The notes under the pieces were generated by a model. It was not told where the DNA came from and searched no databases. It saw only the letters and a program-made list of their open reading frames with translations. This document shows, piece after piece, positions 19,358 to 53,945 of a stretch of 61,501 bases of DNA (position 1 is its first letter; every line of letters starts with the position of its first letter). The translations under genes were made by a program, and so were the position numbers. Origin of the DNA: Lentisphaerae bacterium GWF2_49_21 (GTDB taxonomy: Bacteria > Verrucomicrobiota > Lentisphaeria > Victivallales > GWF2-50-93); the NCBI GenBank assembly GCA_001804805.1, contig MHBH01000003.1, positions 29,555 to 91,055 on the forward strand, in the 5' to 3' direction.

Positions 19358-20115
19358 GTTATAACTGATACGCAGCCATTTCTCGTCACCGACCCAGCGC
19401 ATATCTCCCCCCTGCCCCTGCCGTCAATCTTCGCATAAGGCCTGTGGACATGTCCGCAGAGAGAAAGATCTATGCTTCCGTTCTTCAGGAGTTTCATGAC
19501 TTCCTTTTCACCCCATAATCTATGCCTTAGCCTAAGCCACGGGTGATCCTCGATGATGGGATAGTGCCCAACAAGTATCCTCGGTCTTTCCTTTTTCCCT
19601 GACCATTCCTTCACGACGAAATCACTGCTGGACTTCGGCAGGTATCCGCAGGAGGATAGAAGGTTTGTCGGACAGCTCTCGTTCACCAGTATGAAATCGC
19701 ATTCACCAACAGTCATCTTCACTGGAAGATCATCAAAGGTGAACTTACCGCGATTCAGGAATTTCACCGCATCCTTCATCGCGTCCACGCATCTTTTATT
19801 ATAGACGTAACAGTCGTGGTTTCCGGGGATGAACATGAGTGGAATCTGCGAATTTCGCACAAGCGGTTCAAGGATTTCGAGCTGTATCTTGAATTCACCC
19901 GGCTGACCTGTGGATGTTATGTCACCGCTCAGGACGGCGAGATCGGGTTTCTGTTCGAGGATATAGTCGACAGCCTTCTTCAGATAGCTCTGGTCGTGCT
20001 GGTATTTCCGCCTGAACGAGAAATTGAAGACTCCGACCCATCGCTTGTCGACGTAGGCCATCCAGTCTTCCGCCGGTCCTCCGGCATGCGGATCTGAAAA
20101 ATGTATGATCTTCAT
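19297..20115 (-). CDS. Calcineurin-like metallophosphoesterase
   Basis: A 272-residue two-metal phosphoesterase. All family blocks are present in order: SDPHAGG (D-x-H), LSGDIT (GDxx), IPGNHDCYVYN (GNHD), LVGHYPI and CGHVHRPY (GHxH). The substrate (cyclic nucleotide, UDP-diacylglucosamine or other phosphoester) is not evident; no membrane segment is seen. ATG at 20115 (MKIIHFSDPH) follows GGGAA, while an upstream in-frame ATG adds nine residues encoded by a repeat. A TGCGAATTTCGCA palindrome lies inside at 19847-19859. The 3' end overlaps the convergent methyltransferase gene. Confidence 0.85.
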   Translation of the reverse strand: MKIIHFSDPHAGGPAEDWMAYVDKRWVGVFNFSFRRKYQHDQSYLKKAVDYILEQKPDLAVLSGDITSTGQPGEFKIQLEILEPLVRNSQIPLMFIPGNHDCYVYNKRCVDAMKDAVKFLNRGKFTFDDLPVKMTVGECDFILVNESCPTNLLSSCGYLPKSSSDFVVKEWSGKKERPRILVGHYPIIEDHPWLRLRHRLWGEKEVMKLLKNGSIDLSLCGHVHRPYAKIDGRGRGEICAGSVTRNGCVSVITYDKSKDVFAWENVFLDTKR

Positions 20116-20125
20116 TGAATTCCCA

Positions 20126-20181
20126 AGTATGTCGGGTTTCAACCCGACGGTTCAGTTGACGGGTTAAAACCCGTCCTACTT
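20126..20181. repeat. Interspersed repeat related to R4B
   Basis: Two adjacent hairpins: GTCGGGTTTCAACCCGAC, then ACGGGTTAAAACCCGT followed by CCTACTT. The unit is related to R4B at 18337-18421 and 43784-43872. It lies between the metallophosphoesterase start and the next gene. Confidence 0.65.
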
Positions 20182-20448
20182 AATAGGCAAAGTCATCATC
20201 AGCGGTTCAATTATGGTATCCGCAAACGTCTTCGCCTCCATTCTCTCCTTAAGATAGCTCTGTTCCTTGTCAGGTGAAGCCTGCCATGCGTTTTTTCCGT
20301 CATCATCTAGCTTGTTGCATCCCGTTGACACCTCTTCAAAATATTGACTGCTTCTCCTGACGCCCACAATTACAGCGCACTGGTCATATGTCGGCCATTC
20401 CGTGATCTTGTCCCATGGACCTCCGGCCCATTTCGGAGGATGCTTCAT
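20176..20448 (-). CDS. Hypothetical protein, possibly 5'-truncated
   Basis: A 90-residue soluble protein with balanced composition and conserved-looking segments (PPKWAGGPWDKITEWPTYDQCAVIVGVRR near the start, SYLKERMEAKTFADTIIEPLMM near the end). I do not recognise it. The ATG is only 22 bases from a half copy of the R1 repeat, the frame stays open through that repeat, and no good ribosome site is visible, so the present start may not be original. It has no clear operon partner. Confidence 0.45.
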   Translation of the reverse strand: MKHPPKWAGGPWDKITEWPTYDQCAVIVGVRRSSQYFEEVSTGCNKLDDDGKNAWQASPDKEQSYLKERMEAKTFADTIIEPLMMTLPIK

Positions 20449-20508
20449 GAAACACAGATATCCTGCTCTTGTTGGAGTTCACAGCTTTAGCGTGCTCTTA
20501 TCTAACCA

Positions 20509-21774
20509 TTACTCGACTGTTTTCCGGCGCTCCAATAATCCCACGTATGCGCCGTCGTTGTTTTCCGAGGGAAGAATCTGTTTCTCCTCCTTCAAGACAA
20601 ACTCCTTGTTTTCAGAGACAAACTTCCTGACCTGCATCGAATTCTCCTCGTTTTCAATGCTGCACGTACTGTAGACCATCCTTCCTCCAGGCTTGACAAG
20701 CACAGACGCCCCATCTAGAATCTTCCTCTGCTGCTGGACAAGTTCCTTGAGCTTTTTTTCCGAAAATCTCCAGAGCGCGTCAGGCTTGTGCCTCCCTACT
20801 CCCGTGTTGCTGCAAGGGACATCGAGCAGGACAGCATCAAATCCGGAACCTTTAAGAGATGAGTTTTGTGCGGAAGAAACAACAACGGTCAGATTTTTAA
20901 ATCCTGATCTTGCGAAGTTCGCAACAGTTTTTTTGTGTCTGTCGAAGGAACTGTCGGCGGCAACTATCTCCCCCTCGCCTTTCATTAATTCAGCAAGAAC
21001 CAGGGTTTTTCCTCCTGGTGCCGAACAAAGATCCGCGACAATCTCCCCCTTCTGCGGATTGAGGGCAAGTGCAGAAAGGACTGTCACTGGATCTTGGACA
21101 TAAATCTTTCCGTCATCAAGCCATTTGTTCTTAAAGATCGCGTCGGGATTGGATGTCTTATAGAATTTGAACGGTGAAAGATCAAAGTCTGTCCTGACTT
21201 CCGAGCATCCTGCATCCTTGAGTTCATTTTCAGGAATTTCCTTCAGCAAACGGAATGTGAACTGGGGTTTTTCCCTAAGTATTTTTGCGAACTTCGCAAT
21301 TTCCGCTTCCGGAAAATGTTTCTTCCATCTTTCAAAGAGGACATGTGGCAGATTGAGCTGGACGACGAGAGGAGCCTCCTTTTCAAGTTTTTCAGGATCA
21401 ATTGCGATGGCCTTGCGGAGCACGGCATTGATGAATCCGGCCGGCTTGGCTCCATAGCGGCGGCGCGCATGGTCCACTGCGAAATTTACGGCCATCTCCT
21501 TGGGAATCCCGGTATGGTACCAGGCCTCGGTAACGGCTATGGAAAGAAGCCTCATGAACTTGGGATCGACTTTCCTTGCGAACTTCGCAACCGCAAATTC
21601 TATGAGCGCCTTGTTCCGGAAATACGTGTAGAGAAGGCTTGAAAGGCTTTTCCTGAACCTTGCGGCGTCAGGATTGTCCTCGAGGAAACTGTCGAGTTTG
21701 ATGCCTTTCTCCCAGACTTCGAGCCCGTCGAGGGAGGTCTTGAAAATGACACTTGCTGTATTGTCTTTATTCAT
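20509..21774 (-). CDS. rsmB: 16S rRNA (cytosine-967-C5)-methyltransferase
   Basis: Methylates C967 of 16S rRNA. The first 140 residues form the NusB-like RNA-binding domain (FRKSLSSLLYTYFRNKALIE; ARRRYGAKPAGFINAVLRKA). The methyltransferase half has motif I (VADLCSAPGGKTLVLAELM), the release cysteine in LDVPCSNTGVG and the catalytic cysteine in VYSTCSIENEEN. The length of 421 residues is normal. No clear ribosome site precedes the ATG. Three exact TGCGAANTTCGCA palindromes lie within this gene (20911, 21286, 21577), each coding for an Ala-Lys/Asn-Phe-Ala stretch. Confidence 0.92.
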   Translation of the reverse strand: MNKDNTASVIFKTSLDGLEVWEKGIKLDSFLEDNPDAARFRKSLSSLLYTYFRNKALIEFAVAKFARKVDPKFMRLLSIAVTEAWYHTGIPKEMAVNFAVDHARRRYGAKPAGFINAVLRKAIAIDPEKLEKEAPLVVQLNLPHVLFERWKKHFPEAEIAKFAKILREKPQFTFRLLKEIPENELKDAGCSEVRTDFDLSPFKFYKTSNPDAIFKNKWLDDGKIYVQDPVTVLSALALNPQKGEIVADLCSAPGGKTLVLAELMKGEGEIVAADSSFDRHKKTVANFARSGFKNLTVVVSSAQNSSLKGSGFDAVLLDVPCSNTGVGRHKPDALWRFSEKKLKELVQQQRKILDGASVLVKPGGRMVYSTCSIENEENSMQVRKFVSENKEFVLKEEKQILPSENNDGAYVGLLERRKTVE

Positions 21775-21860
21775 AGGGGGTTTTTAAATTTCCTATATGA
21801 AAATAAAATCTTAGGTTTATATTACAAGCTTGAATTCAAAAACTTAAAATATCTTTCATC

Positions 21861-22655: not shown

Positions 22656-22671
22656 AATAATAGGAGGAATT

Positions 22672-23490: not shown

Positions 23491-23513
23491 GGACGTGCTT
23501 TAGCCTGTCCATG
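23487..23513. repeat. R2 repeat on the stop codon of the M48 gene
   Basis: GTAGGGACGTGCTTTAGCCT-GTCC is a one-base variant of the unit at 11825-11848. In both places the TAG of the repeat is the stop codon of the preceding gene. Confidence 0.6.
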
Positions 23514-23527
23514 TTTTGAAGACCTGA

Positions 23528-23637
23528 AGACGCGTCAGCAGAGTGACGCGGCTACAGCAAGGAAAATGAACCAGAAATGATATTGTGATTAAATTGTTTT
23601 TAGCATTACTGTAGCCACGTCACTCTGCTGACGTGTC
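23528..23637. repeat. Interspersed inverted repeat family R3, copy 1
   Basis: Arms CGTCAGCAGAGTGACGCGGC and GCCACGTCACTCTGCTGACG enclose about 60 A/T-rich bases. Copy 2 is at 44876-44940 with a much shorter loop. The arms contain their own small palindrome (GTCA...TGAC). It is non-coding. Confidence 0.7.
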
Positions 23638-23679
23638 ATAATTGATTATTTTTAATACTAACAACTGACGACTGACAAA

Positions 23680-24489
23680 ATGAAAACCCCATATCCAAAA
23701 GTAAATTATTTCCCAGGGGGAAGATACGATACAAAGCCTGGCTCATCCAAGACCTGGCAGAGGATTCTCTTCCTCGGAACACGGTGGCATTTCTACTTCC
23801 ATTCGTTCAGGATCGCATATAACTCCGGCACACTCGCAAAAAAAGGCCTCTATGGGCCAAATGAACTCGCGTATAACGCATTTGACCTGATAAGATCCGC
23901 AGAATGGGCTGGCGGAACCGCCCACGTTGACGGCATTGATAACTTCACCAAGGTCGGAAGTCCGGTCGTCGTAATCGGCAACCACATGAGCTCCTTTGAA
24001 ACCTATGCCCTGCCCTGCATGGTGCTTGAACACAAGAAGGACACAGTCCTGGTCGTTAAAAAGGAACTTGTCGATTATCCGTTCTTCGGCGAAGTCGCCA
24101 AGATATATGGAATTCCGGTGTCAAGGACGAATCCCCGCGAAGACTTCAAGACCATCATGACAGAAGGACAGAAATACATCGAGGCCGGCAGATCCGTGAT
24201 AATTTTCCCTCAGTCAACCCGATCTGTAGAGTTCAAGCCAGAAGAATTCAATTCCATAGGCGTAAAGCTTGCGAAACGCGCAAATGTGCCTGTGATTCCA
24301 TTCGCATTGAAGACGGATTTCTGGGGGAACGGGAAATATGTAAAGGACTTCGGTCCGGTCGACACGAAAAAACCGCTTTATTTCAGCTTTGGCGAACCGA
24401 TCCACATCAAGTCCGCCACCGGCAAGGAAGAACACGAGCAGATAGTCAAGTTCATCCAAGGCAAACTCGCGGAATGGAATAAGAAGTAA
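23680..24489 (+). CDS. 1-acylglycerol-3-phosphate acyltransferase-like (PlsC family)
   Basis: A 269-residue membrane-associated acyltransferase of the LPLAT family. Motif I is GNHMSSFET: His102 is present but the usual aspartate four residues on (HX4D) is Glu107. Motif III is FPQSTRSVEF instead of FPEGTRS, and motif IV is VPVIPFAL. These changes are consistent inside one protein and suggest a divergent subfamily rather than damage. It may acylate lysophosphatidate or another lipid precursor. No clear ribosome site is seen upstream; the 190 bases before it are R2 and R3 repeats. Confidence 0.8.
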   Translation: MKTPYPKVNYFPGGRYDTKPGSSKTWQRILFLGTRWHFYFHSFRIAYNSGTLAKKGLYGPNELAYNAFDLIRSAEWAGGTAHVDGIDNFTKVGSPVVVIGNHMSSFETYALPCMVLEHKKDTVLVVKKELVDYPFFGEVAKIYGIPVSRTNPREDFKTIMTEGQKYIEAGRSVIIFPQSTRSVEFKPEEFNSIGVKLAKRANVPVIPFALKTDFWGNGKYVKDFGPVDTKKPLYFSFGEPIHIKSATGKEEHEQIVKFIQGKLAEWNKK

Positions 24490-24495
24490 GATTTC

Positions 24496-24606: not shown

Positions 24607-24612
24607 AACTTC

Positions 24613-25476
24613 CTACAGCCAAAACGGCAGTTGCCCGGGGCCATTGCGGTCTAGACCTCCACGGGCGATCAAATAATCGAGTTCCGACAGTAGTTTTGCT
24701 TTGTCATTCGGGAATCTTCCTTCCATAGGCACCGGATTCGAGGCGTGGTTGGCACGGAACACAGTCCTTTCCAGCTCGAGATTCTCAATGATTCTGCGAA
24801 GTTCGCAGACTGCCTCATATTCTGAAACGGTCTCGTATCCGCTGAACATCTTTGTCCCCGGCACTTCGACATATCGCAGGGCCGAGAGCAGTTTTGGCTG
24901 CATCTTGTTCAGAGCTTTAGCCGTCTCAAGGGCATGTTTTTCAGAGCCTTTTTTCCCGCCAAGGCCGAGAAGGATCATGACGGAACAGCGAAGTCCGCAT
25001 TCCTGCGAAATTCGCACAGATTCAATCATCTTTTCGGCGGTTTCCCCCTTGTTGACAAGCTTCAGCAATTCTTCATCCCCGGTTTCCAAGCCGAGATACA
25101 ATGTATGCAACTTCAGCTTGCGAAGTTCGCAAAGCTGTTCCTTCGTCTTGGCGAGGATAGAGCTTCCGTTGGCATAAACATTCACCCGGGTGAGCCTTGG
25201 GAAGAGTTCATTCAGTTTCTGCAGATATTTCTGGAGTTTCTCGAATGACAGTATCATCACATCGCCATCGGCAAGAAAGATCCTCTGCGTCTCAGGGTAT
25301 TTTCTTGCCGTCTTTTCAAAATCCGAGAGGATTTTGTCATCTGCGCGTTCTTCATAACGCGCGGATTTGTACATCCCGCAAAACCGGCAGGTATTATGCG
25401 GACAGCCATATGCGACCTGGAATATCAGGCTGTCTGCTTCGGCCGGCGGACGGAACAATGGCTCACGGTAATTCAT
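24613..25476 (-). CDS. Radical SAM protein of unknown substrate
   Basis: A 287-residue radical SAM enzyme without additional domain. The cluster motif is GCPHNTCRFCGMYK, i.e. C-x4-C-x2-C, a spacing used by a known subgroup rather than the standard C-x3-C-x2-C. Downstream are the glycine-rich strand (IFLADGDVMIL), YLGLETGDEELLKLVNKG and the end ARGGLDRNGPGQLPFWL. No substrate can be named. ATG at 25476 (MNYREPLFRPP) is chosen; an upstream in-frame ATG would add 25 residues encoded by an ACCACAGA...ACACAGAT repeat. Three TGCGAANTTCGCA palindromes lie inside (24795, 25004, 25119). Confidence 0.8.
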   Translation of the reverse strand: MNYREPLFRPPAEADSLIFQVAYGCPHNTCRFCGMYKSARYEERADDKILSDFEKTARKYPETQRIFLADGDVMILSFEKLQKYLQKLNELFPRLTRVNVYANGSSILAKTKEQLCELRKLKLHTLYLGLETGDEELLKLVNKGETAEKMIESVRISQECGLRCSVMILLGLGGKKGSEKHALETAKALNKMQPKLLSALRYVEVPGTKMFSGYETVSEYEAVCELRRIIENLELERTVFRANHASNPVPMEGRFPNDKAKLLSELDYLIARGGLDRNGPGQLPFWL

Positions 25477-26009: not shown

Positions 26010-27272
26010 TTATTGGAATTTTGCGCCAAGATTTTTGAAGTCGGAGATGAAATCGGGATATGTGACAGCAGCGGATTCGGCGTTCTTCACGATAGTTGTG
26101 CCTTCGGCGTTGAGTCCGGCGATAGCGAGGGCCATGGCGATCCTGTGGTCATTGTAGCTTTCGACTTCGGCGCCATGGAGTTTTGAACCTTTGATAATCA
26201 TGCCGTCCGGAAGCTCCTCGACATCCGCGCCCATCTTGCGAAGTTCGCAGGTCATGCTGGCAATGCGGTCAGTTTCCTTGATTCGCGCCTGCGGGACATT
26301 CAGAAGCTTAGTAGTTCCTTCTGCAAAACATCCGGCAACCGCGAGTGCTGGCAAAGCGTCGGGAGTTGAATTGAGATCAAGCTCAGCGCCTTTTAGCTTT
26401 CCGGTGCATTTCACGACGGTCTTATCAAAACTACGTTTGATGTCCATTCCCATCTTTTCAAGATACTTGAAGACTTCCTTGTCGCCCTGGCGGTCATTGA
26501 AGTCAAGGTTCCTGATGACGACTTCACCTCCGGTGATTGCAGCGGCAACGAGAGGAAATGTCGCTGTTGAGAAATCGGCTGGGATTGTCATTTCAAAAGG
26601 CTTGTATGCCTGACCGCCCCTGATCTTGAACTTGAGAAGATCTTCTGTGTGTTCAAACTTGATCTTCTGTTTGTTGAGCCAGTCGAGGGTGAGTTCGACA
26701 TACGGTTTCTCGTTGAGATTGAAAACAGTAAGTTCGGTATCGCCTTCGATGAGGGGAACGGCGAGAAGAATGGCTGTGACAAACTGCGAGGATTTGCCTT
26801 CAACCTTTGCTTTTCCTCCTTTGATAGGACCTTGGACCGACAACGGGCATTTCCCATCTTTGGAAGTCGTCTTTGCACCAAGCATTGCAAGAGCGGACAG
26901 GACAGGTACCATATGGCGGGTGCGCAGGGATTCATCACCGTCGAAATCAGCCCTGGTCGCGGAAATAGAGGCAAGGCCTGTGAATATCCTGAGACTGGTT
27001 CCTGAATTTCCAACATCGATGACGCCGGATTTGATCTTTGGTTTGCCGGAAACACCTTTGATCGTCCAGAGGTTTTCTTTTTTCTCTATCTTCGCTCCGA
27101 AGGCGGCGGAGGCGTTCAGGCTGGAAAGAGTATCTCCGGAAACAAGGGGGCGGTGGATTTTGGAAATGCCGTCAGCCATGGCACCGATGGCGACAGCGCG
27201 TATGGTATGGGATTTTGATCCCGGCACGGAAATTTCGCCTTTAATCTTTGATTTTTTGACTTCGAGATTCAA
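26010..27272 (-). CDS. aroA: 3-phosphoshikimate 1-carboxyvinyltransferase (EPSP synthase)
   Basis: Joins shikimate 3-phosphate with PEP in chorismate synthesis. The 420-residue protein has SVPGSKSHTIRA, the PEP-binding loop DVGNSGTSLRIF, FSTATFPLVAAAITGG and the C-terminal ESYNDHRIAMALAIAGL. The loop (GNSGTSLR rather than GNAGTAMRP) sets it apart from the classical enterobacterial type. The start codon is TTG at 27272, overlapping the TGA stop of the TM2 gene as TTGA, so translation is coupled. One TGCGAAGTTCGCA palindrome lies at 26237. Confidence 0.95.
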   Translation of the reverse strand: MNLEVKKSKIKGEISVPGSKSHTIRAVAIGAMADGISKIHRPLVSGDTLSSLNASAAFGAKIEKKENLWTIKGVSGKPKIKSGVIDVGNSGTSLRIFTGLASISATRADFDGDESLRTRHMVPVLSALAMLGAKTTSKDGKCPLSVQGPIKGGKAKVEGKSSQFVTAILLAVPLIEGDTELTVFNLNEKPYVELTLDWLNKQKIKFEHTEDLLKFKIRGGQAYKPFEMTIPADFSTATFPLVAAAITGGEVVIRNLDFNDRQGDKEVFKYLEKMGMDIKRSFDKTVVKCTGKLKGAELDLNSTPDALPALAVAGCFAEGTTKLLNVPQARIKETDRIASMTCELRKMGADVEELPDGMIIKGSKLHGAEVESYNDHRIAMALAIAGLNAEGTTIVKNAESAAVTYPDFISDFKNLGAKFQ

Positions 27273-31273: not shown

Positions 31274-33832
31274 TTACTCCTTGAGTTTGAATTTTTCGCG
31301 AATTTCGCGGATCATCTTGGTGAAATCGTCCTTCGGCTCCATGTTGAGGGCGACAAGCTTCCTGTAGATGCTGACGGCCGCCTCCGCGGCTTCGGGCGTC
31401 TCCTTCTCGAGATAAAGCCTTGCGGCGGCCTGGGCGGCCTTGATGAGCCAGACAGGATCCCTTATCTCCCCCTTGTCCTTGTCGGCCTGATAACCATATA
31501 TGATTTCACGGTATCTTGCAAGCGCGCTGCCCTTGTCGCCTATCGTCTCATCGCATTTGGCAAGCTTATATACCGCCTGATCCCTGAAATTCAAAGATAT
31601 GTTCGTCCTTGCAATGATTTTCCTGAAATAATCGGTTGCCGTCATGATGTTGGAGTTGTCCGGTGTCTTCCAGGCGATGGAGAAATAGCAGTCTCCGAGA
31701 CGCCCCCAGCAGGCTGTCTCGAGATTCGAACCCGGCCTTCGTTCGGCGGCCTTGGTATAGAAAGGAATCGCCTTTTCAAATTCATTGGCCTCGGAAAGGA
31801 TATCCCCCCTGAGCATGAATCCCTCGGAGACGATGCTCTCGTTGGGGAATTTTTCCGAAAGCTCGTCGAGATACTTTACGGCCTTGTCATTTTTCCCGGC
31901 CTTGGAACAGATATACGCGGATTCATAGATCGCCTCGGAGGCGACGGACGGTTTCGCGGCATATTTGGCCGCAAGCTCCTGTAGCACCGCCTCCGCCTTG
32001 TCGAACTTCCCTCCGTCCCTGAGGAAATCCGCCTGCCAGAAAAGTCCTTTCACCGTGAAGAGCGAATCAGAATAATTTTTCCTGAGGAGCTCAAGATCCT
32101 TCCCGGCCGCCTCCTCGCCGCCAGAGAGGAAATGGGCGTAGAGCCTCTTGTAGAGCGCGTTCGGCGCAATCTCATCCTTCGGATAGGTCTCGAGGATCTT
32201 CGAGTAGTTCTCCTCGGCCATCTTGTAGTTTCCGCTGTCAAATCCGATGTTCCCCATTTCGAACCATGCCCTTGGGGCGTCCGTGTTCTCCGGAAATCTT
32301 TTTGCGAAATCCGCAAATACCCCGGCCGCATCATCAAACTTCCTGAGCTTCAGAAGCGTCATGCCATAGAGGAAATAGGCGCTCTGGTAGCTTGCGCCCC
32401 TGTCGAACTCCTTCATGTACGAACCGAGAAGCACGAAGGCCTTCTGGTAATCCTTCATTTCAAAGACCGCATTCACCTGCTTCAGCAGGGCGGGCTCCCT
32501 GGACATCGGATCTTCGCCCGCTATCTTCTCGAACGCGGCTGCACCCTCGGAATATTTCTTCTCCAGGCACAATATGTCGGCAAGCTGTATCCTGGCTTCG
32601 AATTTCCTGGCCCTGTCCTGGGCGTTCTCAACAATGTAGTTGAATTTCTCACGGGCCTCGTTGTACAGCTTTTCGGCGATGAAGACCTGTCCGGCCTCCC
32701 TGGCGGCCGACAATTTCATCGCATTGTCGATTTTAGGACTGTTCAACATCTCCTTGTAGATGTTCACGGCCTCCTGGTATTTCTTCAGCGCCATCAACAT
32801 CCTCGCCAGCTGGAGCATTATCCTTCCGCTGCTTGAGGAGTTCGGATAATTCTTCAGGAACCTCTGGCAGGTCCCGATGGCTCCTTCGTTGTTTCCGGAA
32901 AGAGCCTGCGAATTTATCATCTGCAGGAGCATCTTCTCCTTGTCAATTTCACTCTCCGCGAAAAACTCGGCGTCCTTCTGGTAGACAAGGGCTGACTGCA
33001 GGTTCTTCTTGTCCAGATACGCGTTCGCAAGGTTGAAGCTGGCGAGGAACCAGAGGGAATCCGGCCCCTGTGCCTGGCTCCTGATCTTCTTGTACATCTC
33101 GTCGGCCTCCGCAAGCTTGCCCTCCTTTACGAGGAGGAATACTGTCAGGAGGACATCCGTCACGTTCTTTGAATCGCCTGCGTTCAGCATTGAACGGGCT
33201 TTTTCAATGTCACCCTTGTAGATGGCGACAAGTATCCTCTGTTTCCTGGCGTAGTCCGCCCATCTTGTGCCTTTGCCGACAGCTTCGAGCTTGAGATATG
33301 TTTTTTCCGCCTCGTCCCAGTTCAGCTTGATCACCCATACGGCGGCAAGGCCTGAAAGCGATTCCGCATAGATGTCGGAAATATCAGGAGCTGTCTTGAG
33401 GATGCGGTTGTAGGCGTCGATCGCCAGGTCGAGCTCCCCTTCGAGCACGAGAATGTTGGCGTTCCAGTAGTCGGCCCTCTGGGCGAACTCCTTGCCGGCT
33501 GCGATCTCATCTGCGAACTTCGCGGAGAACTCCTGGAATTCGGTGCGTGCGTTTTTGGCGTCCCTGTTTCCCACATGTGCTGAAAAAAGACAGCAGTAGG
33601 AATCCTTCAGGGCGGCCTGGTCATCGGCCGCTTCGTTCTTATACTGGGTGTAGAACTTCACGGCAAGGGAGTAGTATCCGTCGCTGAAGGCCTTGTCTCC
33701 GATCTGCCTCGACCTGTAATATTTCCCGTTCGCATCCTGGGCGGAGACAGAAAGCACGCAGAAAAGAACGGCCGCTGCAAGGGCGAAGCAGTTTTTCAAT
33801 CTTCTGTTATTCAGAATGATATCCATAGTCAT
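31274..33832 (-). CDS. Large periplasmic TPR-repeat protein linked to ExbB-ExbD-TonB
   Basis: A protein of about 852 residues with a signal peptide (RLKNCFALAAAVLFCVLSVSAQD) and then tetratricopeptide repeats along almost its whole length, for example SDGYYSLAVKFYTQY, YNEAREKFNYIVEN, KMAEENYSKILETYPKD and EFEKAIPFYTKAAERRPGS. It should be a periplasmic scaffold. The start at 33832 (MTMDIILNN) puts the signal peptide at the N terminus; upstream in-frame residues come from the repeat at 33838. It is the first gene of a tight operon with exbB, exbD, tonB-like and the zinc-ribbon membrane protein genes, so it probably works with that energised envelope system. Confidence 0.85.
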   Translation of the reverse strand: MTMDIILNNRRLKNCFALAAAVLFCVLSVSAQDANGKYYRSRQIGDKAFSDGYYSLAVKFYTQYKNEAADDQAALKDSYCCLFSAHVGNRDAKNARTEFQEFSAKFADEIAAGKEFAQRADYWNANILVLEGELDLAIDAYNRILKTAPDISDIYAESLSGLAAVWVIKLNWDEAEKTYLKLEAVGKGTRWADYARKQRILVAIYKGDIEKARSMLNAGDSKNVTDVLLTVFLLVKEGKLAEADEMYKKIRSQAQGPDSLWFLASFNLANAYLDKKNLQSALVYQKDAEFFAESEIDKEKMLLQMINSQALSGNNEGAIGTCQRFLKNYPNSSSSGRIMLQLARMLMALKKYQEAVNIYKEMLNSPKIDNAMKLSAAREAGQVFIAEKLYNEAREKFNYIVENAQDRARKFEARIQLADILCLEKKYSEGAAAFEKIAGEDPMSREPALLKQVNAVFEMKDYQKAFVLLGSYMKEFDRGASYQSAYFLYGMTLLKLRKFDDAAGVFADFAKRFPENTDAPRAWFEMGNIGFDSGNYKMAEENYSKILETYPKDEIAPNALYKRLYAHFLSGGEEAAGKDLELLRKNYSDSLFTVKGLFWQADFLRDGGKFDKAEAVLQELAAKYAAKPSVASEAIYESAYICSKAGKNDKAVKYLDELSEKFPNESIVSEGFMLRGDILSEANEFEKAIPFYTKAAERRPGSNLETACWGRLGDCYFSIAWKTPDNSNIMTATDYFRKIIARTNISLNFRDQAVYKLAKCDETIGDKGSALARYREIIYGYQADKDKGEIRDPVWLIKAAQAAARLYLEKETPEAAEAAVSIYRKLVALNMEPKDDFTKMIREIREKFKLKE

Positions 33833-43872: not shown

Positions 43873-44014
43873 AACCGGTAAAAGTTTCTTATTGATAAAA
43901 CTGCGACCTCCGCAGTCAGTCGCTACGAACGAATTATAAAATACGAGGATTGGTTTTCATAGGATAGTGCTGTATTTTAGGCAAATCTGGAAATCTTTAA
44001 GCAAGGCGTTACCG

Positions 44015-45125: not shown

Positions 45126-48100
45126 TCAGGGCTGTTCAGCGGAATTCTCTGATTTCCCGCCGCCGACTTCAACTTCTACGGTGTGATCCTGGTGGTCATC
45201 GACCAGATGGACCTGCAGATCATCCTGTGCTTTTGTGTCCACGAGAACGCTCCTTACAAGCCATGTCTCCGGTCCGCGGATATGGATTTTAATGTGATAG
45301 ACTGTTTCACGGAAACGATAATGTATGGTGCATTCCTTCCAGTCCGCCGGAAGCACCGGTTCAAAAGACAGCCTGTCAACTTCCAATTTCAGTCCGATAA
45401 GGCTTTCCACGAAGAAGCGGTACATCCATCCGGCGCTGCCCGTGTACCAGGTCCATCCGCCCCGGCCTTCATGCTGTTTGGCAGTATAAATGTCGGCGGA
45501 AACGACATATGGCTCGACCTTGTATTTTCCAATCTGCTTCTTTGTGCTGCCATGGTTGACGGGATTTATCATCCTTGCTATTTCCCAGGCGCGTTTCACG
45601 TCATGAAGTTTTGAGAATGCCATTCCAACCCAGACAGCAGCATGCGTGTATTGTCCGCCGTTCTCCCTGACGCCCGGGATATAGCCTTTGATATAGCCGG
45701 GGGAAGGATCAGACTTGTCGAAAGGAGGATCGAAGAGCTGGACAAGCCCAAGTTTCTGCCTGACCAGTTGTTTTTCCACTTCATCCATCGCCTGTCTGCT
45801 TCTTTCCGGATCCGCCGCACCGCTGAGAATGGCCCAGCTTTGCGGAATCGAGTCGATGCTGCATTCGGTATTTACATGCGAGCCAAGCGGGCTGCCATCG
45901 TCAAAATAGGCACGTTTATACCATTGTCCGTCCCATGCGTTCTTCTCAATATTTTCCTTCAAGGACGCTTTCATCAGCCGGCATTTTTCGGCAAACTCCA
46001 GATCATTGCGTCCTTGAGATATCTTCTCAAACTGCTGGAGTACGTCTATGAGGAAGAAAGCAAGCCAGACACTTTCGCCTTTGCCTTTGATGCCCACATG
46101 GTTCATACCGTCATTCCAGTCTCCGCATCCCATGAGAGGAAGACCGTGTTCGCCTATCCGGGACATGGCCAGTTCGATGGCGCGCACGCAGTGGTCATAA
46201 ACCGAAATCTGCTTATCCCCCTTATATGGCATGTCGTAGTATGATTCCTCATTTTCAGGGACTGGACGGCCGCTGAGCACAGAAGTTTTTTCATCGAGCA
46301 CTCCTGTATCGTTTGTAGCGTGGACATAATGACAGACCACGAACGGAAGCCACAGGTAGTCATCCGAAAAATGCGTGCGGATGCCACGGCCTGAAGGCGG
46401 ATGCCACCAATGCTGGACATCTCCTTCGCCAAACTGACGGCTGGAACAGAGAAGTATATGGCTCCTCAGCATGTCCGGCCTGCAATGGAGAAGCGACATG
46501 GAATCCTGCAGCTGGTCCCGGAAACCAAAGGCTCCTCCCGACTGGTAGAAACCGCTGCGTCCCCATATGCGGCAGGCTATCACCTGGTATAGCAGCCAGT
46601 TGTTTACGAGGAGGTTCAACGCTCTGTCCGGAGTCTCCACATTGATCGCGCCCAGGCAGTGCTTCCATGAATCCCAGACTTTTTCAAGATCCTGCCAGGC
46701 TCCGGCCCTGGAACTGTGCTTCTGTATGATGCTCCTCGCCTCCTCCTTGCTCTGAGCCCCGCCGAGCATAAAGACAACTTGCCTCTCCTGTCCTGGTGGA
46801 ATTGTCACATATGTTTGAATTGCCGCACAAGGATCAAGGGCGGGCCCTACCCTGTTGGAAAGCCTCTGTCTGAACATTGCAGCAGGACTTTCAAGGGAGC
46901 CGTTGCGTCCGATAAATTCCGTACGATCGCCGGTGAACGTACGTTCGGATTCGCTTGTCTGTACAAAAATTATCACGCTGGAAAACTCGGTATTGAATGA
47001 ATTGGTCAGGAAAATGGCGTTCGTCTGGGGATCGATCCTGCTGACCACGTGCATCGAGCTGCGCCCCTTCAATTCGCCGACTGCGCATTCAGCAAATGAA
47101 GTGACGGACACCTTCCGTTCACGGTCGGACAAGTTTCGAATCTTGATCAGGGCCAGCTTTACCGGAACGTCAACTGGAACATAGGCCAATGTCTCCGTGA
47201 AAATATCGTTCTGCCTGTGTTCGAAGGCCGAATAACCAAGGCCGTGACGGCATACATAGGAAGTCTTTCCGCGGGCGGGGCCTGGTGTCGGAGACCAGAA
47301 CGCCCCTGTCTGCTCGTCCCGCACATAGAATGCTTCGCCTGATGTTCCGCTTACCGGATCGTTATACCATGGAGTAATGCGGAACTGCCGTGCATTTTCA
47401 AACCATGTGTAGGCCGATCCTGTCTCGCATATCACGCTGCCGAAGCTGCTGTTGGCAAGGACATTCACCCATGGTGCCGGAGTCACCACGCCGGGGGCGA
47501 GGATGATCACATATTCACGTCCGTCCTGGGTGAAACCTCCGTATCCATTGAAAAAAACCAGATCAGTCCTTGTGATAGGAATGTCCTTCTCACCGGCAGG
47601 AGCCGTCCGTCTTGGAACGAAGAACGGCAATTTTGCTTCACTCCGGAATCTCCGTTCGACCTGTTCTGCAAATGTCCCGGCCCTGTCCGTCATATAGACA
47701 CGTGCCGCGGCCTGGAGGAGAAGCCGGTCCTCCTCGGGTATCTGATCCGTGGTACGGATGAAAATACCCCCTTTCTGATCAAGCATCTGCGCTTCCGAAT
47801 CAGCGGATATCATTCCAGTTATCTCGTCACGGAGGGGCTGACGGTATCCTGAGATCGTATCCACCCAGATGACGAGGTCGAAGCGGAGCCCCTTGTTGCG
47901 GCAGTATGCATAGCAGCGCACTGCCTGACTCACCAGATCGATCCCTGTTGAATCCATTGCATGGATGAGCATGATCGGCAGATCACCGGAAATGCCATAC
48001 CTCCACAGCAGGGACTGGTCCTTGTTGTTGTGGGAGATTATGCCGGCGCCGGCGCGGTGTCGTGCGTTTGCGTAAATGATCGAGCTTGCAAGGCGGCCGA

Positions 48101-51100
48101 ACAGCTGGGCATCGGCTTCCGTGGCCCGGAGATGCTGGAGAAGCACCTGGCTGTGGGTCCATGCGATGTCGAATACGCGTTCAGCAAGGCGATAATCACG
48201 GTATTTATCTATGAGAAGCAAAGCCTGTTCCTTGGTCGACGTGGCTCCCATTATAAGATCCACCATGACAGATTCCCCGGCAGGAACAACGATCCTGCGC
48301 CTTATGGACGCTATCGGCTCAAGCACCATGCCGGCCGTATTTGACAGCCTGCCGACGGCATCCATCGCAGCAGGATTCGATAGACTGCGGGTCCTCCCGA
48401 TAAATTTGTTGCGGTCGGTTTCAAACGAACAATCCTTGACCGGCTGTCCGTTGTGTACAACCATGCTTTTGAACATCCAGGGGACAATCTCCTGTTCTGA
48501 ACGCGGACGGCGTGTGCACAAGATGGCGGATTTGTCGTGAAGCAGTACCGTCTGTATGAAAAGGCTGTTGAATACGGGGTGCGACATATCTGCCAGCTCT
48601 TCAGAAAGAACTACTTCCGCGTAGCTGGTCAGGTCGAGTGTTCTTTCCGAAGACGAAAGATTGCGTATTGTCATGCGCCTTATTTCAATGTCATCCTCCG
48701 GAGAGACTGTTATCTTCGTGTAGGATTCAATATCATTGCTTATGCTGCGGAACTCGACCAGGGCCTGGGAGAATATGACTTCATAGCTGCGGGGACGGAT
48801 GCATGTCGGCTGATATGTGGTGGACCAGAATCCGCCTGATTCGGCATCCTGCACATAACAGTGCAACCCATAGCAGTCCCGCGTCACATCCTCCCTCCAG
48901 CGCACCAGGTCCATGCCCTGCCATCTGCTATATCCGCCGCCTGCGTTTGTCAGCATCACATTATATCGTCCATTGCTCAGCATCTGCACGCGCGGCACTT
49001 CAGAATCGGGATTTGTATAGACACGCGTTATTGATTCCTTGATCTGCGCATCTGTCTTGTTCGAAATTCCCGAATGGGGATGAGTGATGAGGGCGGATTC
49101 ATTGAGAACTGCAGGAATGCGCTCCTGGAGAAGAAGCAGAGATGATCTCATTTCGGGATCCAGTATGAAACGTCTCTGCATCGGCCTGTTGAGGAGCACA
49201 TGCGCCAGCGACAGCATGCTCATGCCGCTGTGGTGGGCCATATAGCTCCACACTACGGCCCTGTCCTGTCCGGCCGGTATGCGCATGGCCGTATAGTCCA
49301 CCGCCTCATACATGCCCATCCTGCCCAGAATCCCATCTTCTGCGAGACGTTGCAAATTAAGGCACGCCTCCACGGGCATGCAGATGAGCCCCATCACCGA
49401 TGCATATGGCGCTATTACCAGCTCTTCCGAAAGACCCCTCATAAGACCAAGTTCCGGAACACCGAATGCACGGTACTGGTATATCTTCTGTCCGTCGATC
49501 AGATTATATGACGATTCAGATATACCCCACGGGACCTGGCGCTTGTTCCCATATATGATCTGCTGTTTCACGGCGTTGCGGCAGGAGTAGTCTGTCAGAG
49601 TTCCTCCATATGTGGGCATAAGGAGGTTCGGCATCAGATACTCGAACATGGAACCGCTCCATGAAAGCAGGGAGGGAGGACCTGTCTCCACCTTGGCCTG
49701 CTGGCGTCCGAGAAGGAACCAGTGCTCCTGGGGCAGACGTCCCTGCGCCACTCCTATGAAACTGCAGAGCCTGGCTTCGGAAGCAAAAAGATCGTAATAG
49801 CTGTTGTCCATCTTGTGGCTGTCAATATTGAATCCGATGGATAGCAGTTTCCGGTCCGGCTGGAAAAGGAATTCCAAGTCCCAGTCCGACAGCTCCCTGC
49901 ACTCCTCGCCAAGCTGTTCAAGTTCACTGATCCAGTTGCTTGCGCAGATGCTGGATTCAGACAAGTCGGTCCGAAGGACATTGAACCATTTGAGCACTTC
50001 ATCGTCCTGGCTTGAACCGCCTTTGTCCATGGGAACATTCTTTATCCATCCGTCAATCCTCATTCCCCACTTCTGATTCAGGGACGCCATTTCGGAAAGA
50101 GTGCTGATCCGGTGCAGATCTGACAGCAGATCATTGAGCTCCGCCGGAGGAAGGATTTGGCTGGCTTTTTCAAATGCAGATCCGGAAAGGCAGTCGCCTT
50201 CAAGCCATGGAGCAATCTGGGCAATCTCTCCAAAGAGGTCTTCACATTGCGTCCTTAATGTCTTCAACCACCAGCGGACTTCGGCGTTTCCAATCAATTC
50301 CGTCTTCAACTGGGACTGTTTGGAAATAAGATCTTTCAGACCAAGATATATTTCATCCAGAGATCCTGCAGGCTTGGAATCCATGATGATTGTCCTGCAC
50401 AGGGATATTATCGCCTGAAGTGCGTCTCTTGCATCAGGGGTGGAATTGTCGGAACTGGCAAGGAGCGCCTCCTCTTCAAGCAGTCGGGCCGTGTCCTTCA
50501 TGCCTGCAAGCCATTGATCTGAAACTATGGGGGAAGTTTTAAGTTCAAGCAGGCCTCCGCGCAGTACAATGAGGGATCCGACCAGATTTCCACTGTCGAC
50601 CGTGGAGACATAACGTGGCTTCATGGCACGGAGGCTCTTGGTTTCATACCAGTTGAAAAAATGTCCTCGGAACATTTCCATCTGTCCCATCGATTTGAAA
50701 GTGCCCTGTATGCGCTTAATCAAATTGCTCGTACCTACATATCCGAAATCGCGGGCCGCAAGGGTCGAGAGAAGACACATGCCGATGTTTGTGGGCGAAG
50801 TCCTCCACGCGATCTGGAATTCAGGTTTTTCCTGAAGATTGTCAGGAGGCAGCCAGTTGTTCTCCGGCCCCACCAGCTCTTCAAAATATCTCCAGGTCCT
50901 CCTCGATATCCTGCGCAGGAATTCCTTCTGGTTCCCGTCGAGGCTTGCACGGACATTCCTCGCCGGCCGGCTGATGAACCAGGCGACAGCCGGCGCCAGT
51001 ATCCAGAGCGCCCCTAAAACCGTTGCAGCAACGAATGATGGACTTTCATCATGGAAAACAATGATGCAGCAGAAAATTCCTATGGCAGGATTGCTCCACA

Positions 51101-53945
51101 TCCGTTTCAATACTGATATGAAGCTGGTACCCGCCCGTCTCTCAGCGCTTCTTGCCGTCTGCCATTCAAGAAGATTGCGTCCGGTGAACATCCTCCTCCA
51201 GAACGCCTTGAGGATCGCATCTATGTTCATTGAAGTTTCAAAAGGCAGAAAGATGATCTGCAGGATCTCCTGGAACAGATGCCTCAACTGCAGGTCCAGG
51301 GTGTGCCGTACATGGTAGTCCCAGGCGACTTTGCCGGGTTTTATGCACAGTCCCCATATCGTCTGGATGAATATTGGAAGGAAAAAAATGGACAGCATGA
51401 CGGTGGTCCACAGGAAAATATCTTCAGGAAAGAATATGCAGACAATGAGGATCAGAAAAAATATTGCAGGCGAAACAAGGCTGCGCCGCAGATTGTCAAA
51501 GATCATCCATTTTGCCGTCAAAGACAAGCTGTTATGTATTATTCTGCCGGTTCCGTCGGGAACTGTCGGGAACAGCCATCTTATGATCTGCCAGTCCCCG
51601 CGTATCCAGCGGTTCCTGCGGCTTATGTCGACAAGATACTGAGAAGGATGATCCTCGATCAGGTCGACATCGTTGACACATCCGCATCTTGCATAAAGCC
51701 CTTCTATAAGGTCATGGCTGAGAATCGTATTTTCAGGGAACCTGTTGCCGACCGCCGCATCGAAAGCATCAACATCATATATCCCCTTTCCGAGAAAAGG
51801 CGTCGTTCCGATCATGTCCTGGTATATTTCGGAGATTTCATGCGTGTATGGATCGATCCCGACATCACCGGAAAAGAACTTGGAATATAATGATGTGGAG
51901 GCTCCAATAAGGCTCATTGATATCCTGGGCTGCATGATCCCGTAGCCCCTGGTCACGCATCCGGTCTGTGCATCGATCTTCGGACTGTTGAGCGGATGGG
52001 CCATCGCCCCCACGAGCTTCCAGGCTGCCGACGGCGGAAGCTGCGTATCCGAATCAAGGGTGATGACATATCGGACCTCCTTGAACAAATCCTGTTTTCC
52101 TCCGGAGACATTTATTATTCTTCCGGGTCTGCCGCGGATATACGAATTGAGGTCGTTGACCTTCCCCCTCTTCCTCTCGTATCCCATCCACTTCTGTTCG
52201 GACTCGTTCCATTCTCTTTTCCTGTGCAGCAGGAAGAAGACCTGGCTATCGCCTGCCGCATATCTCCTGTTCAGGGATTCGATGCCGTTCCTGGCGTAAT
52301 CCAGCAGGGCTCCGTCCTTCTCCATTGTTTCCTGGTTTGAATCGGTGAAATCCGTCACAAGCGTGAAGATCAAGCTGGGATCGCGGTTTGCAACGTAGCA
52401 TATTTCCAAGCCTGAAATCAGTTCATCGATCGATGAGGTCCTTGTGAGCATTGTCTGTACGGCCACAAGTGTTCTGCACCTGCCGGGAATCCCTTTCGAG
52501 AAATCCATCCGCGGCAATGAACGTGGAGATATCAGCGATGTTGTTATCCAGTTGACAATCGATATTGCTGATCTCGACGCCAGCATTATGACCAGGATTG
52601 AAATCAGCGCCAGGAAGACCTCCCTGTGAATGAGATCCGGCCATATTTCAAGTATTGCAGTTCCGGCAAGGACCAGCGACAGCATGGCCACCATTCCCAG
52701 ATAGAGGAGGAGCGGATTCCTGCCCAGGAGTTTTTTTACGGCTTCACGGACCAGGAACCGGGGACGGATGATGCTTTCAAGTTCAGGCCGCCCTTTATCC
52801 ACCAGGAAATAGCCGACGTGGGCCTCCCTGGGATCGGCTCCCTTGTTTTCCATCCTCTTCGTGGCAAGATTCACTGCTTCAGAGGCTATGCCCTCCTCCT
52901 TCATGCTGCTGTTCCGGGCAAGTTTCTCCACTACGTGGCGGTATGCGTCACGTGTCCGGAAATCCATCAGCCCGTAAATGCCGGAAGGATCCTTCCTGAG
53001 CTTTTTCTCCGTTATGCTCTGGTCTTCAATGAAAGGCTTCCAGTCGGTCTCGCCGAGAGCCCTCAGGCTTGTTATGCTGTTGCCTATGGACACCTGGTCT
53101 ATGGCCTGATCCTGGCTTTCAGCCTGCAGTATCTGCTCAATCGTCTGCCCGTCCTCTGAAAGCTGGCGTTCAAGCCAGTTGATCACAAGCCCCAGGGAAA
53201 GATGCTGCCCGTGTATGCGCATCGTAAGTTCGGCTATGAACGGATGCGAGAGCTTCGGGGACTCCCTCACAAAATCAGCCAGTTCCGTTATCACCACTTT
53301 GGAGTCCTTGCTTGCGGCCGCCAGAAATCTATCAGCCCAGTCTATTGCAGAATTACGATCAAACCGCCGAAGGGCTATACGGTGTGCTACTCGGCGCAGG
53401 TTCTCGATGAGGGCCATCCTGAGCATGATAGGCATCGCCCACAGCTCGCCAAGGGAAAGATTCTGGACAGTCTGGTACGTCCCTATGAAATGCGTAAGGT
53501 TACCAACATCGACCCTGCCATCGGTATGTGAGACAAGTTCAAACGCCAGGTCATAGACTCTTGGATATCCTTCATGCTTTCCCGTCTTCAGACGCGGAAG
53601 CTGCCTGCTGTATTTCCTCGAAAGATATTTGCCTGCGAGAAGAATCTGCTCTTCTATCACATAGTAGTTGTCCAGAAGCCACTCGGCCGCAGGAGCAAGC
53701 TGACGGTTGTTGTCGAGGGCCTCCGAAGCAATCCGGTGGGCCTCCCGTATCACCATCTTGTTTTCCGCGAGCCTGGAAAGAAGGAGTTCCCTGCCTGGAG
53801 CAGGATCAACCTCGTGCTCGCCGGCAAGCGCGCGTGCGAACTTCGCAAACTGGTCACGCCCGAACAGCTCCGCGCGCAGAGGCGCCTCCACTACGAGGCT
53901 GTAGACATCACTGAGGCCTGACATGGCTGGAATTTGGATCTTCAT
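45126..53945 (-). CDS. Cyclic beta-1,2-glucan synthase (NdvB/ChvB-like, GT84 plus GH94-type domains)
   Basis: A giant inner-membrane enzyme of about 2,939 residues, the usual size for ChvB/NdvB. The order is an N-terminal cytoplasmic region; transmembrane helices near residues 420-470; a GT84 glycosyltransferase domain with TLDSDTQLPPSAAW (near 635) and RRNRWIRGDWQIIRWLFP (near 785); more helices near 825-875 and 945-1010; a glycoamylase-like region; and two glycosyltransferase-36/GH94-type modules ending in MGCGDWNDGMNHVG (near 2,615). It should make, cyclise and trim osmoregulated beta-1,2-glucan. ATG at 53945 is used; TTG at 53963 with AGAGGA further upstream is an alternative. No ChvA exporter is seen. 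Confidence 0.9.
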   Translation of the reverse strand: MKIQIPAMSGLSDVYSLVVEAPLRAELFGRDQFAKFARALAGEHEVDPAPGRELLLSRLAENKMVIREAHRIASEALDNNRQLAPAAEWLLDNYYVIEEQILLAGKYLSRKYSRQLPRLKTGKHEGYPRVYDLAFELVSHTDGRVDVGNLTHFIGTYQTVQNLSLGELWAMPIMLRMALIENLRRVAHRIALRRFDRNSAIDWADRFLAAASKDSKVVITELADFVRESPKLSHPFIAELTMRIHGQHLSLGLVINWLERQLSEDGQTIEQILQAESQDQAIDQVSIGNSITSLRALGETDWKPFIEDQSITEKKLRKDPSGIYGLMDFRTRDAYRHVVEKLARNSSMKEEGIASEAVNLATKRMENKGADPREAHVGYFLVDKGRPELESIIRPRFLVREAVKKLLGRNPLLLYLGMVAMLSLVLAGTAILEIWPDLIHREVFLALISILVIMLASRSAISIVNWITTSLISPRSLPRMDFSKGIPGRCRTLVAVQTMLTRTSSIDELISGLEICYVANRDPSLIFTLVTDFTDSNQETMEKDGALLDYARNGIESLNRRYAAGDSQVFFLLHRKREWNESEQKWMGYERKRGKVNDLNSYIRGRPGRIINVSGGKQDLFKEVRYVITLDSDTQLPPSAAWKLVGAMAHPLNSPKIDAQTGCVTRGYGIMQPRISMSLIGASTSLYSKFFSGDVGIDPYTHEISEIYQDMIGTTPFLGKGIYDVDAFDAAVGNRFPENTILSHDLIEGLYARCGCVNDVDLIEDHPSQYLVDISRRNRWIRGDWQIIRWLFPTVPDGTGRIIHNSLSLTAKWMIFDNLRRSLVSPAIFFLILIVCIFFPEDIFLWTTVMLSIFFLPIFIQTIWGLCIKPGKVAWDYHVRHTLDLQLRHLFQEILQIIFLPFETSMNIDAILKAFWRRMFTGRNLLEWQTARSAERRAGTSFISVLKRMWSNPAIGIFCCIIVFHDESPSFVAATVLGALWILAPAVAWFISRPARNVRASLDGNQKEFLRRISRRTWRYFEELVGPENNWLPPDNLQEKPEFQIAWRTSPTNIGMCLLSTLAARDFGYVGTSNLIKRIQGTFKSMGQMEMFRGHFFNWYETKSLRAMKPRYVSTVDSGNLVGSLIVLRGGLLELKTSPIVSDQWLAGMKDTARLLEEEALLASSDNSTPDARDALQAIISLCRTIIMDSKPAGSLDEIYLGLKDLISKQSQLKTELIGNAEVRWWLKTLRTQCEDLFGEIAQIAPWLEGDCLSGSAFEKASQILPPAELNDLLSDLHRISTLSEMASLNQKWGMRIDGWIKNVPMDKGGSSQDDEVLKWFNVLRTDLSESSICASNWISELEQLGEECRELSDWDLEFLFQPDRKLLSIGFNIDSHKMDNSYYDLFASEARLCSFIGVAQGRLPQEHWFLLGRQQAKVETGPPSLLSWSGSMFEYLMPNLLMPTYGGTLTDYSCRNAVKQQIIYGNKRQVPWGISESSYNLIDGQKIYQYRAFGVPELGLMRGLSEELVIAPYASVMGLICMPVEACLNLQRLAEDGILGRMGMYEAVDYTAMRIPAGQDRAVVWSYMAHHSGMSMLSLAHVLLNRPMQRRFILDPEMRSSLLLLQERIPAVLNESALITHPHSGISNKTDAQIKESITRVYTNPDSEVPRVQMLSNGRYNVMLTNAGGGYSRWQGMDLVRWREDVTRDCYGLHCYVQDAESGGFWSTTYQPTCIRPRSYEVIFSQALVEFRSISNDIESYTKITVSPEDDIEIRRMTIRNLSSSERTLDLTSYAEVVLSEELADMSHPVFNSLFIQTVLLHDKSAILCTRRPRSEQEIVPWMFKSMVVHNGQPVKDCSFETDRNKFIGRTRSLSNPAAMDAVGRLSNTAGMVLEPIASIRRRIVVPAGESVMVDLIMGATSTKEQALLLIDKYRDYRLAERVFDIAWTHSQVLLQHLRATEADAQLFGRLASSIIYANARHRAGAGIISHNNKDQSLLWRYGISGDLPIMLIHAMDSTGIDLVSQAVRCYAYCRNKGLRFDLVIWVDTISGYRQPLRDEITGMISADSEAQMLDQKGGIFIRTTDQIPEEDRLLLQAAARVYMTDRAGTFAEQVERRFRSEAKLPFFVPRRTAPAGEKDIPITRTDLVFFNGYGGFTQDGREYVIILAPGVVTPAPWVNVLANSSFGSVICETGSAYTWFENARQFRITPWYNDPVSGTSGEAFYVRDEQTGAFWSPTPGPARGKTSYVCRHGLGYSAFEHRQNDIFTETLAYVPVDVPVKLALIKIRNLSDRERKVSVTSFAECAVGELKGRSSMHVVSRIDPQTNAIFLTNSFNTEFSSVIIFVQTSESERTFTGDRTEFIGRNGSLESPAAMFRQRLSNRVGPALDPCAAIQTYVTIPPGQERQVVFMLGGAQSKEEARSIIQKHSSRAGAWQDLEKVWDSWKHCLGAINVETPDRALNLLVNNWLLYQVIACRIWGRSGFYQSGGAFGFRDQLQDSMSLLHCRPDMLRSHILLCSSRQFGEGDVQHWWHPPSGRGIRTHFSDDYLWLPFVVCHYVHATNDTGVLDEKTSVLSGRPVPENEESYYDMPYKGDKQISVYDHCVRAIELAMSRIGEHGLPLMGCGDWNDGMNHVGIKGKGESVWLAFFLIDVLQQFEKISQGRNDLEFAEKCRLMKASLKENIEKNAWDGQWYKRAYFDDGSPLGSHVNTECSIDSIPQSWAILSGAADPERSRQAMDEVEKQLVRQKLGLVQLFDPPFDKSDPSPGYIKGYIPGVRENGGQYTHAAVWVGMAFSKLHDVKRAWEIARMINPVNHGSTKKQIGKYKVEPYVVSADIYTAKQHEGRGGWTWYTGSAGWMYRFFVESLIGLKLEVDRLSFEPVLPADWKECTIHYRFRETVYHIKIHIRGPETWLVRSVLVDTKAQDDLQVHLVDDHQDHTVEVEVGGGKSENSAEQP

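Follow-up and report, generated by a model that had tools for sequence, protein, structure and literature searches.

A gapped palindrome iterated through Lentisphaeria genomes and two phage contigs: a candidate binding site of a symmetric DNA reader

Palindrome sites in the window and their placement

The window analysed here is the whole stretch of 61,501 nucleotides from Lentisphaerae bacterium GWF2_49_21, whose genes, rsmB and aroA among them, carry repeated copies of a 13-base palindromic word, TGCGAANTTCGCA (Table 1). By exact matching we count 10 copies of this strict word; the original prediction had listed nine, all of which are real, and had missed the one at 14395. There are also four one-mismatch copies, of which those at 17451, 32303 and 33512 had been placed correctly, and the fourth, given as 15535, belongs at 15525. 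In 100 dinucleotide shuffles of the window, copies with up to one mismatch averaged 0.33, with a maximum of 3. When the word is reduced to its core, TGCG-N5-CGCA, the window contains 18 sites, 10 strict and 8 degenerate, plus one near-site at 33512, and all of these are entered without strand.

Table 1. Sites of the palindrome in the window, with the gene that contains each and its state in related genomes.
Feature	Position	Strand	Gene	Related genomes
Strict site, TGCGAACTTCGCA	14395..14407	.	GH94 gene	present in G001
Strict site	19847..19859	.	metallophosphoesterase gene	present in G003; G001 alignment partial
Strict site	20911..20923	.	rsmB	present in G003; gone from G001 and G002
Strict site	21286..21298	.	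rsmB	present in G001, G002 and G003; altered centre base in G002
Strict site	21577..21589	.	rsmB	present in G001, G002 and G003; centre C in the window, T in the relatives
Strict site	24795..24807	.	radical SAM gene	present in G001 and G002
Strict site	25004..25016	.	radical SAM gene	core retained in G001 and G002, spacer altered
Strict site	25119..25131	.	radical SAM gene	present in G002; gone from G001
Strict site	26237..26249	.	aroA (EPSP synthase)	present in G001
Strict site	53835..53847	.	8.8-kb GH94/glycoamylase-domain gene, near 5' end	no aligned relative
Degenerate site, TGCG-N5-CGCA	8532..8544	.	AcrB-type transporter gene	
Degenerate site, TGCG-N5-CGCA	10306..10318	.	AcrB-type transporter gene, the same as for 8532	
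Degenerate site	12393..12405	.	metW-like gene	core retained in G001
Degenerate site, one spacer mismatch	15525..15537	.	GH94 gene	present in G001
Degenerate site	17451..17463	.	semialdehyde dehydrogenase gene	one core mismatch in G001
Degenerate site	24270..24282	.	acyltransferase gene	present in G001 and G002; absent in G003
Degenerate site	32303..32315	.	TPR gene	present in G001
Degenerate site	43902..43914	.	intergenic, about 60 bases ahead of a pseudouridine synthase gene	
Near-site, last core base altered	33512..33524	.	TPR gene	full strict site in G001

At the mean density of the genome, 3.95 strict sites would be expected in the window, and 10 were found (P = 0.0075). Eight of them lie within 6.4 kb, and the local density that the original prediction had drawn attention to is real for strict sites, as eight within a stretch of this length never arose when 380 sites were placed uniformly 2000 times. 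The palindrome is nevertheless not a local cluster, being found genome-wide and across much of a bacterial class. Clustering was dropped as a separate phenomenon because the spacings of core sites over 485 kb are near random (17 of 153 below 250 bp, against 13.3 expected), the dense stretch of strict sites still being real. This stretch is part of a gene block common to the sister species G001, in which six of the eight strict sites on a 126-kb contig (C97) lie between 55 and 75 kb, in the matching block. A replication terminus at the dense block, as a change of sign in GC skew might suggest, was considered and rejected; the skew tracks gene orientation, in G001 as well, and changes sign there several times. 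Matches resembling dif at the block were few, and none was common to the window and G001.

Positions 45126-53963 of the window are occupied by a single gene of 2945 amino acids with glycoamylase-like and GH94 domains, which holds one strict site in 8.8 kb and whose product resembles cyclic beta-glucan synthases.

The element and selection on its DNA

Over the 5,915,131 bases of the genome (G000), the strict word occurs in 380 exact copies and its reversed pattern in one, bearing out the massive over-representation first claimed; for the 15-bp form described below the counts are 1104 against 18 for the control. Among 180 half-site-permuted palindromes counted in 441 kb, the strict word had 48 copies and the runner-up 2. 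The same 441 kb contain 75 one-mismatch copies, far above chance, and in 62 of these the mismatch falls on the inner bases. The outer bases and their distance are rigid: the core TGCG-N5-CGCA has 153 sites in 441 kb, and each of the 15 other spacings in the range 0-15 has between 3 and 9. In G231, a near-complete genome of another family, 1.24 Mb hold 244 sites with the N5 spacing versus 2-12 at other spacings. Core density in G000 is 332 per Mb (161 sites over 485 kb), or about one site per 3 kb.

The profile of the G000 core sites has A (78%) or G (17%) at position -2, A (67%) at -1 and a free centre, and the outer neighbour at -7 is a pyrimidine, C or T, in 86% of sites. Past these 15 bp the flanks look random, with no conservation around the G000 sites, and the dyad runs around one base, so that the element has no orientation. 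It is thus a 15-bp gapped palindrome, YTGCG-R-D-N-H-Y-CGCAR, with the core TGCG-N5-CGCA and a spacer that is rigid in length and degenerate in sequence. The 13-bp palindrome of the original prediction is indeed highly iterated, but the true element is this 4-N5-4 form with a degenerate spacer. The core profile and the random flanks together are those of a site to which a symmetric dimer binds, and not of a mobile repeat.

Most sites lie in genes, and we therefore compared their number with a null model in which the proteins are fixed and codons are drawn at genome usage. For the coding DNA of the 485 kb, this null, which takes as given residues that the motif itself shapes, predicts 0.66 strict and 8.8 core sites, where 48 and 156 are seen. 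The 48 coding strict sites are distributed over the three phases as 38, 5 and 5, and a start at the third codon position is found in 38 of these 48 and in 124 of the 156 core sites; in this commonest phase the strict word encodes Ala-Lys/Asn-Phe-Ala. All three reading frames are therefore used, as had been noted earlier, though very unequally.

The sister species G001 allows 13 of the 18 core sites in the window to be aligned. Third codon positions inside the cores are identical in 38 of 40 cases, versus 5364 of 8982 (60%) elsewhere in the aligned genes (binomial P = 4e-7), and the core is intact in G001 at 10 of the 13 aligned sites versus 2.3 for random places of the same phase. Even in rsmB, whose product is only 66% identical to that of G002, two of three sites persist in that genome, both with an altered centre base. 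Selection maintains the element as DNA, not as protein. The statement that protein conservation is no explanation for the copies thus stands.

Of the 161 core sites of G000, 156 are in coding sequence and 5 are intergenic, fewer than the 13.5% share of half-sites would predict (P = 7e-6). In G231 intergenic sites are slightly too rare (11 of 244, against 8.6%; P = 0.01), and 233 are coding. This rarity was not seen in G012 or G025, where 7 of 43 and 18 of 53 sites fall outside genes called by a home-made gene finder (76% and 69% of bases called coding, respectively), and hence there is no simple rule of location. The G231 sites come from 62 stretches of 20 kb on contigs of 2.73 and 2.40 Mb. 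At least one site is found in 57 of these stretches and five are empty, with no visible gradient between origin and terminus. GC skew turns at separate points in each of the two contigs, C1 (2.73 Mb) and C2 (2.40 Mb), as though these were two replicons. A 19-base word, CTTTGCGGAGTACGCAAAG, is identical near both ends of C1 (L125:293 and L160:4613), outside called genes, and is possibly one repeat.

Spread over Lentisphaeria, a second dialect and phage carriers

The nearest named relatives that we found are Lentisphaerae metagenome genomes, with aroA identities of 89% (GWF2_50_93) and 86% (isolate GL140_5). Strict sites occur in five of six named loci around aroA, with 8 in 14.7 kb of CSMAG_162, 4 in 9.1 kb of DeMMO1_3, 6 in 21.3 kb of GWF2_50_93 and one each in two others; no site was found in the 21.3 kb of this locus from the sheep-colon genome RGIG5525. 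In a set of 60 genomes, all eight examined from the family GWF2-50-93 carry between 226 and 381 strict sites. The sister family f6 is uneven, with 498 in G025, 111 in G030, 3 in G012 and 2 in G019; G011 has 19, and the remaining 47 genomes have 0-2. A search for the 15-bp form in a sample of 288 genomes of the phylum gave strong enrichment in the members of GWF2-50-93 that were drawn and in G025, G011, G120, G142, G215 and G231, all six in the class Lentisphaeria. A few other class members had a small excess (G170, 37 versus 7), and among about 190 genomes of the phylum outside the class none had more than 23 sites of this form. The motif is therefore present in all family genomes examined and patchy in the rest of the class. 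It is also dispensable, because several class members (G249, G010 and G016) have no element of this kind in the 40-120 kb inspected in each.

The two f6 genomes that nearly lack the strict word carry another form. CGCG-N5-CGCG occurs 1305 times in G012 and 1751 times in G019, versus 51 and 30 for the controls, and 1-96 times in the 13 other genomes of the same search (at most 96, versus 25, in G007). The N5 spacing is kept, with 43 sites in 64 kb of G012 versus 0-6 at other spacings. A or G is favoured at -2, and the same phase is preferred (31 of 36 sites in genes). Genomes within f6 therefore differ in the outer base pair of the half-site, at over 1000 places, with the geometry unchanged.

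In a sample of 108 class genomes that did not include G012 and G019, counts of the CGCG form were mostly near control, with excesses of about 3-fold in some members of genus g56 and of 51 versus 3 in G140. In another genus, g27 of family f4 (G038, G040, G042 and G044), CGCGRNNNYCGCG is 3- to 5-fold over its reversed control (at the most, 334 versus 64), which could reflect a weak dialect or an effect of composition. Three palindromes of G117, GATC-N5-GATC, GCGC-N5-GCGC and GCCGC-N3-GCGGC, were considered as dialects and rejected, being intergenic tandem or interspersed repeats with shared flanks (61 of 63, 27 of 29 and 20 of 21 copies outside called genes). Between its genes, this genome (L205-L208) has arrays of period 9 around GATC and numerous palindromic repeats around GCAGAAGCGCTGAAAGCGC; the high reversed-control counts in its genus probably have the same repeats as their source.

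A viral collection scanned with 14-base versions of the element gave at least 570 distinct stretches that contain one core site or more. Among the matches listed, one site was found in 438 stretches, two in 106, three in 16 and four in 7, and 5, 6 and 13 sites in one stretch each. Most of the richer stretches are either GC-rich, with equal matches at other spacings, or have only 3-4 sites, and these we take as chance. Clear enrichment was seen in two phage contigs, which account for four of the 570 stretches among the matches listed. IMGVR_UViG_3300033146_002466 (10,068 bases, 33% GC) has 13 core sites, compared with a total of 1 for 12 other spacings; all 13 are in open frames, including the portal and tape-measure genes, between which lie protease and capsid genes. 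IMGVR_UViG_3300037087_000031 (36.9 kb), which also carries terminase and capsid genes, has 8 sites in 31.2 kb, all strict. Five of these are in called genes, two in that of a DnaB-like helicase and one in a replication-initiation gene. A search of the viral collection with the capsids of both contigs gave no relatives beyond themselves. Phages tend to lose restriction sites, not to gain them, and uptake signals are of no evident use to them, so that the phage sites would favour a function of this DNA inside the cell. For the second contig, it may also be that a phage repressor has by coincidence the same operator.

Possible readers and competing explanations

Three families of DNA methyltransferases were searched for a reader common to the carriers. 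PF01555 was absent from G000, G002, G003, G025, G215 and G231 (36 genomes searched), PF00145 from G002, G006, G025 and G231 (25 genomes), and PF02086 from G019, G025, G030, G215 and G231 (16 genomes). Each of these genomes is rich in one of the two dialects; incompleteness weakens single absences, and G231, G215 and G000 are 94-96% complete. With several motif-rich carriers lacking each of the families, a methyltransferase of these three is disfavoured as the common reader. The N6_Mtase family PF02384 has matches in 16 of 16 genomes searched, and the reader may belong to it, although the matches are of mixed types (HsdM-like, Eco57I-like and fragments) and occur also in the motif-less G249. 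A 1009-aa Eco57I-type methylase of G025 was set aside, as G012 and G019 have no weak long-frame PF02384 match of that sort. The Lrp/AsnC 15-bp consensus has the same Y...R symmetry as the element, but all 25 genomes searched have this family (PF01037), whether they carry the motif or not, and its presence does not discriminate. The same is true of ComEC, found in 37 of 38 genomes and equally in motif-less ones, with its sole absence in G019 (1751 sites, 84% complete). No reader protein was identified among the families searched.

The comparison with highly iterated palindromes made in the original prediction is apt, in that a frequent palindrome is selected as DNA (380 copies versus 1; 38 of 40 third positions). 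HIP1 and the alternate HIPs of cyanobacteria (Elhai 2015, PMC4390886) likewise number hundreds to thousands per genome, are clade-wide with losses, and are replaced by variants in some lineages; the cyanobacterial HIP1 derivative TCGATCGA also differs in its outermost base. Cyanobacteria that carry HIP all possess a methyltransferase whose predicted recognition covers part of it (PMC4390886). It is thus conceivable that here too an orphan methyltransferase recognises the palindrome, and that copies accumulate through methyl-directed repair or some further use of the methylated site. PF02384 would be available for this in every genome searched; its mixture of types, the absences of the other three families and the gain of sites by phages speak against it, and we consider this reading unlikely. 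The element moreover departs from HIP, whose core is contiguous, GC-rich and 5-8 bp long (PMC4390886), by being gapped (4-N5-4, 13-15 bp), with a core at about 330 per Mb; it belongs to another class of bacteria, lacks a methyltransferase common to carriers in the three families tested, and occurs also in phages, a point compared from its own side only. A DNA uptake sequence, with copies accrued by biased transformation because a competence receptor prefers motif DNA, would account for dialects as receptor changes. One-base dialects between related lineages, with about 1000 or more copies per genome, are described for Neisseriaceae (Frye 2013, PMC3630211), the TGCG and CGCG forms within f6 are dialects of this sort, and ComEC is nearly universal in our genomes. 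Uptake sequences, however, are oriented, non-palindromic words, and the element is a gapped palindrome without orientation, with dense sites in phage genes; ComEC, too, is as frequent without the motif and missing from a motif-rich carrier, G019. We find this explanation slightly less likely still.

The concentration of sites in the coding sequence of G000 and G231 would fit a hairpin that folds in mRNA for processing, pausing or stability. In the six pairs of the sense strand, however, 26 changes of wobble type stand against 30 mirror changes that break pairing, with codon constraints confounding two of the pairs, and a third of the G025 sites lie outside called genes; such a role is improbable. 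Marginally more improbable still is a role in segregation or division like that of matS, SlmA or Noc sites, limited to part of the chromosome. These systems and parS do use palindromes read by dimers, often in coding DNA, but with tens of sites in one part of the chromosome, where the element has hundreds to more than 1000 over the whole genome, 10-100 times as many. The G231 sites are all over both large contigs, so that the segregation system originally suggested is not supported in its macrodomain form. The strong phase bias is what might have been expected of a by-product of codon or amino-acid usage. This reading, and that of a dispersed mobile repeat, are refuted by the specificity of the N5 spacing, the coding counts and the conservation of third positions; all three phases are used, and flanks are not shared between sites.

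We therefore propose, with a probability of about one half for the explanation as a whole, that the element is a candidate binding site of a symmetric dimeric reader that marks or organises self DNA in the cell. A sequence-specific DNA-binding protein of this kind would bind the palindrome through half-sites 9 to 10 bp, or about one helical turn, apart, and would act within the cell on the DNA resident there, whether chromosomal or phage. Its most likely role would be to mark or organise self DNA in a Chi-like or nucleoid-protein-like manner. A shift of its specificity by one base pair, as suggested for two genera of the sister family, would have swapped the set of sites, TGCG for CGCG, leaving geometry and density unchanged. 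Of the earlier suggestions, a binding site remains natural, with a sequence-specific reader as its explanation, though not one read in common by a methyltransferase of the three families above; a nucleoid-type reader comes close to our proposal. Chi resembles the element in occurring once per 3-5 kb, mainly in genes, and in being of use to phages too; it differs in being short, asymmetric and strand-biased, not a gapped palindrome.

Taken further, the element could mark self DNA across a bacterial class independently of methylation, with a dimeric reader, a 4-N5-4 palindrome at one per 1-5 kb, a one-base shift that swaps more than 1000 sites, and phages that bear the host's form so as to be taken for self or to attract the reader. 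This bolder version we regard as tentative and, on the whole, doubtful. That hundreds to more than 1000 copies are present per genome in many members of the class and in two viruses suggests that a cell protein reads the word as a mark on DNA, and the phage sites suggest a role inside the cell and not in uptake. Comparing the dialect groups offers a direct route to that protein.

The element resembles HIP1 and the dialects of uptake sequences without having all of their tested features. It is apparently an independent, second case of HIP, gapped and outside cyanobacteria, and one with no common methyltransferase of the three main families, a natural one-base dialect between sister genera, and phage carriers. 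A literature search for TGCGAANTTCGCA and six variants returned no paper with the string, and one for palindromes with Lentisphaerae or Verrucomicrobia found no report. The function of HIP is itself still termed a mystery (PMC4390886).

Six family members, G000 (C60), G001 (C82), G002 (C179), G003 (C383), G004 (C34) and G005 (C432), encode a DNA methyltransferase of the D12 class, with a length of about 320-340 aa, or 284 aa in G003; matches in G006 and G007 are weak. Contig C126 of G025 (L233) carries a defence island with a type I restriction R subunit, an Eco57I-like methylase, a Schlafen AlbA_2 protein and an AbiEii toxin.
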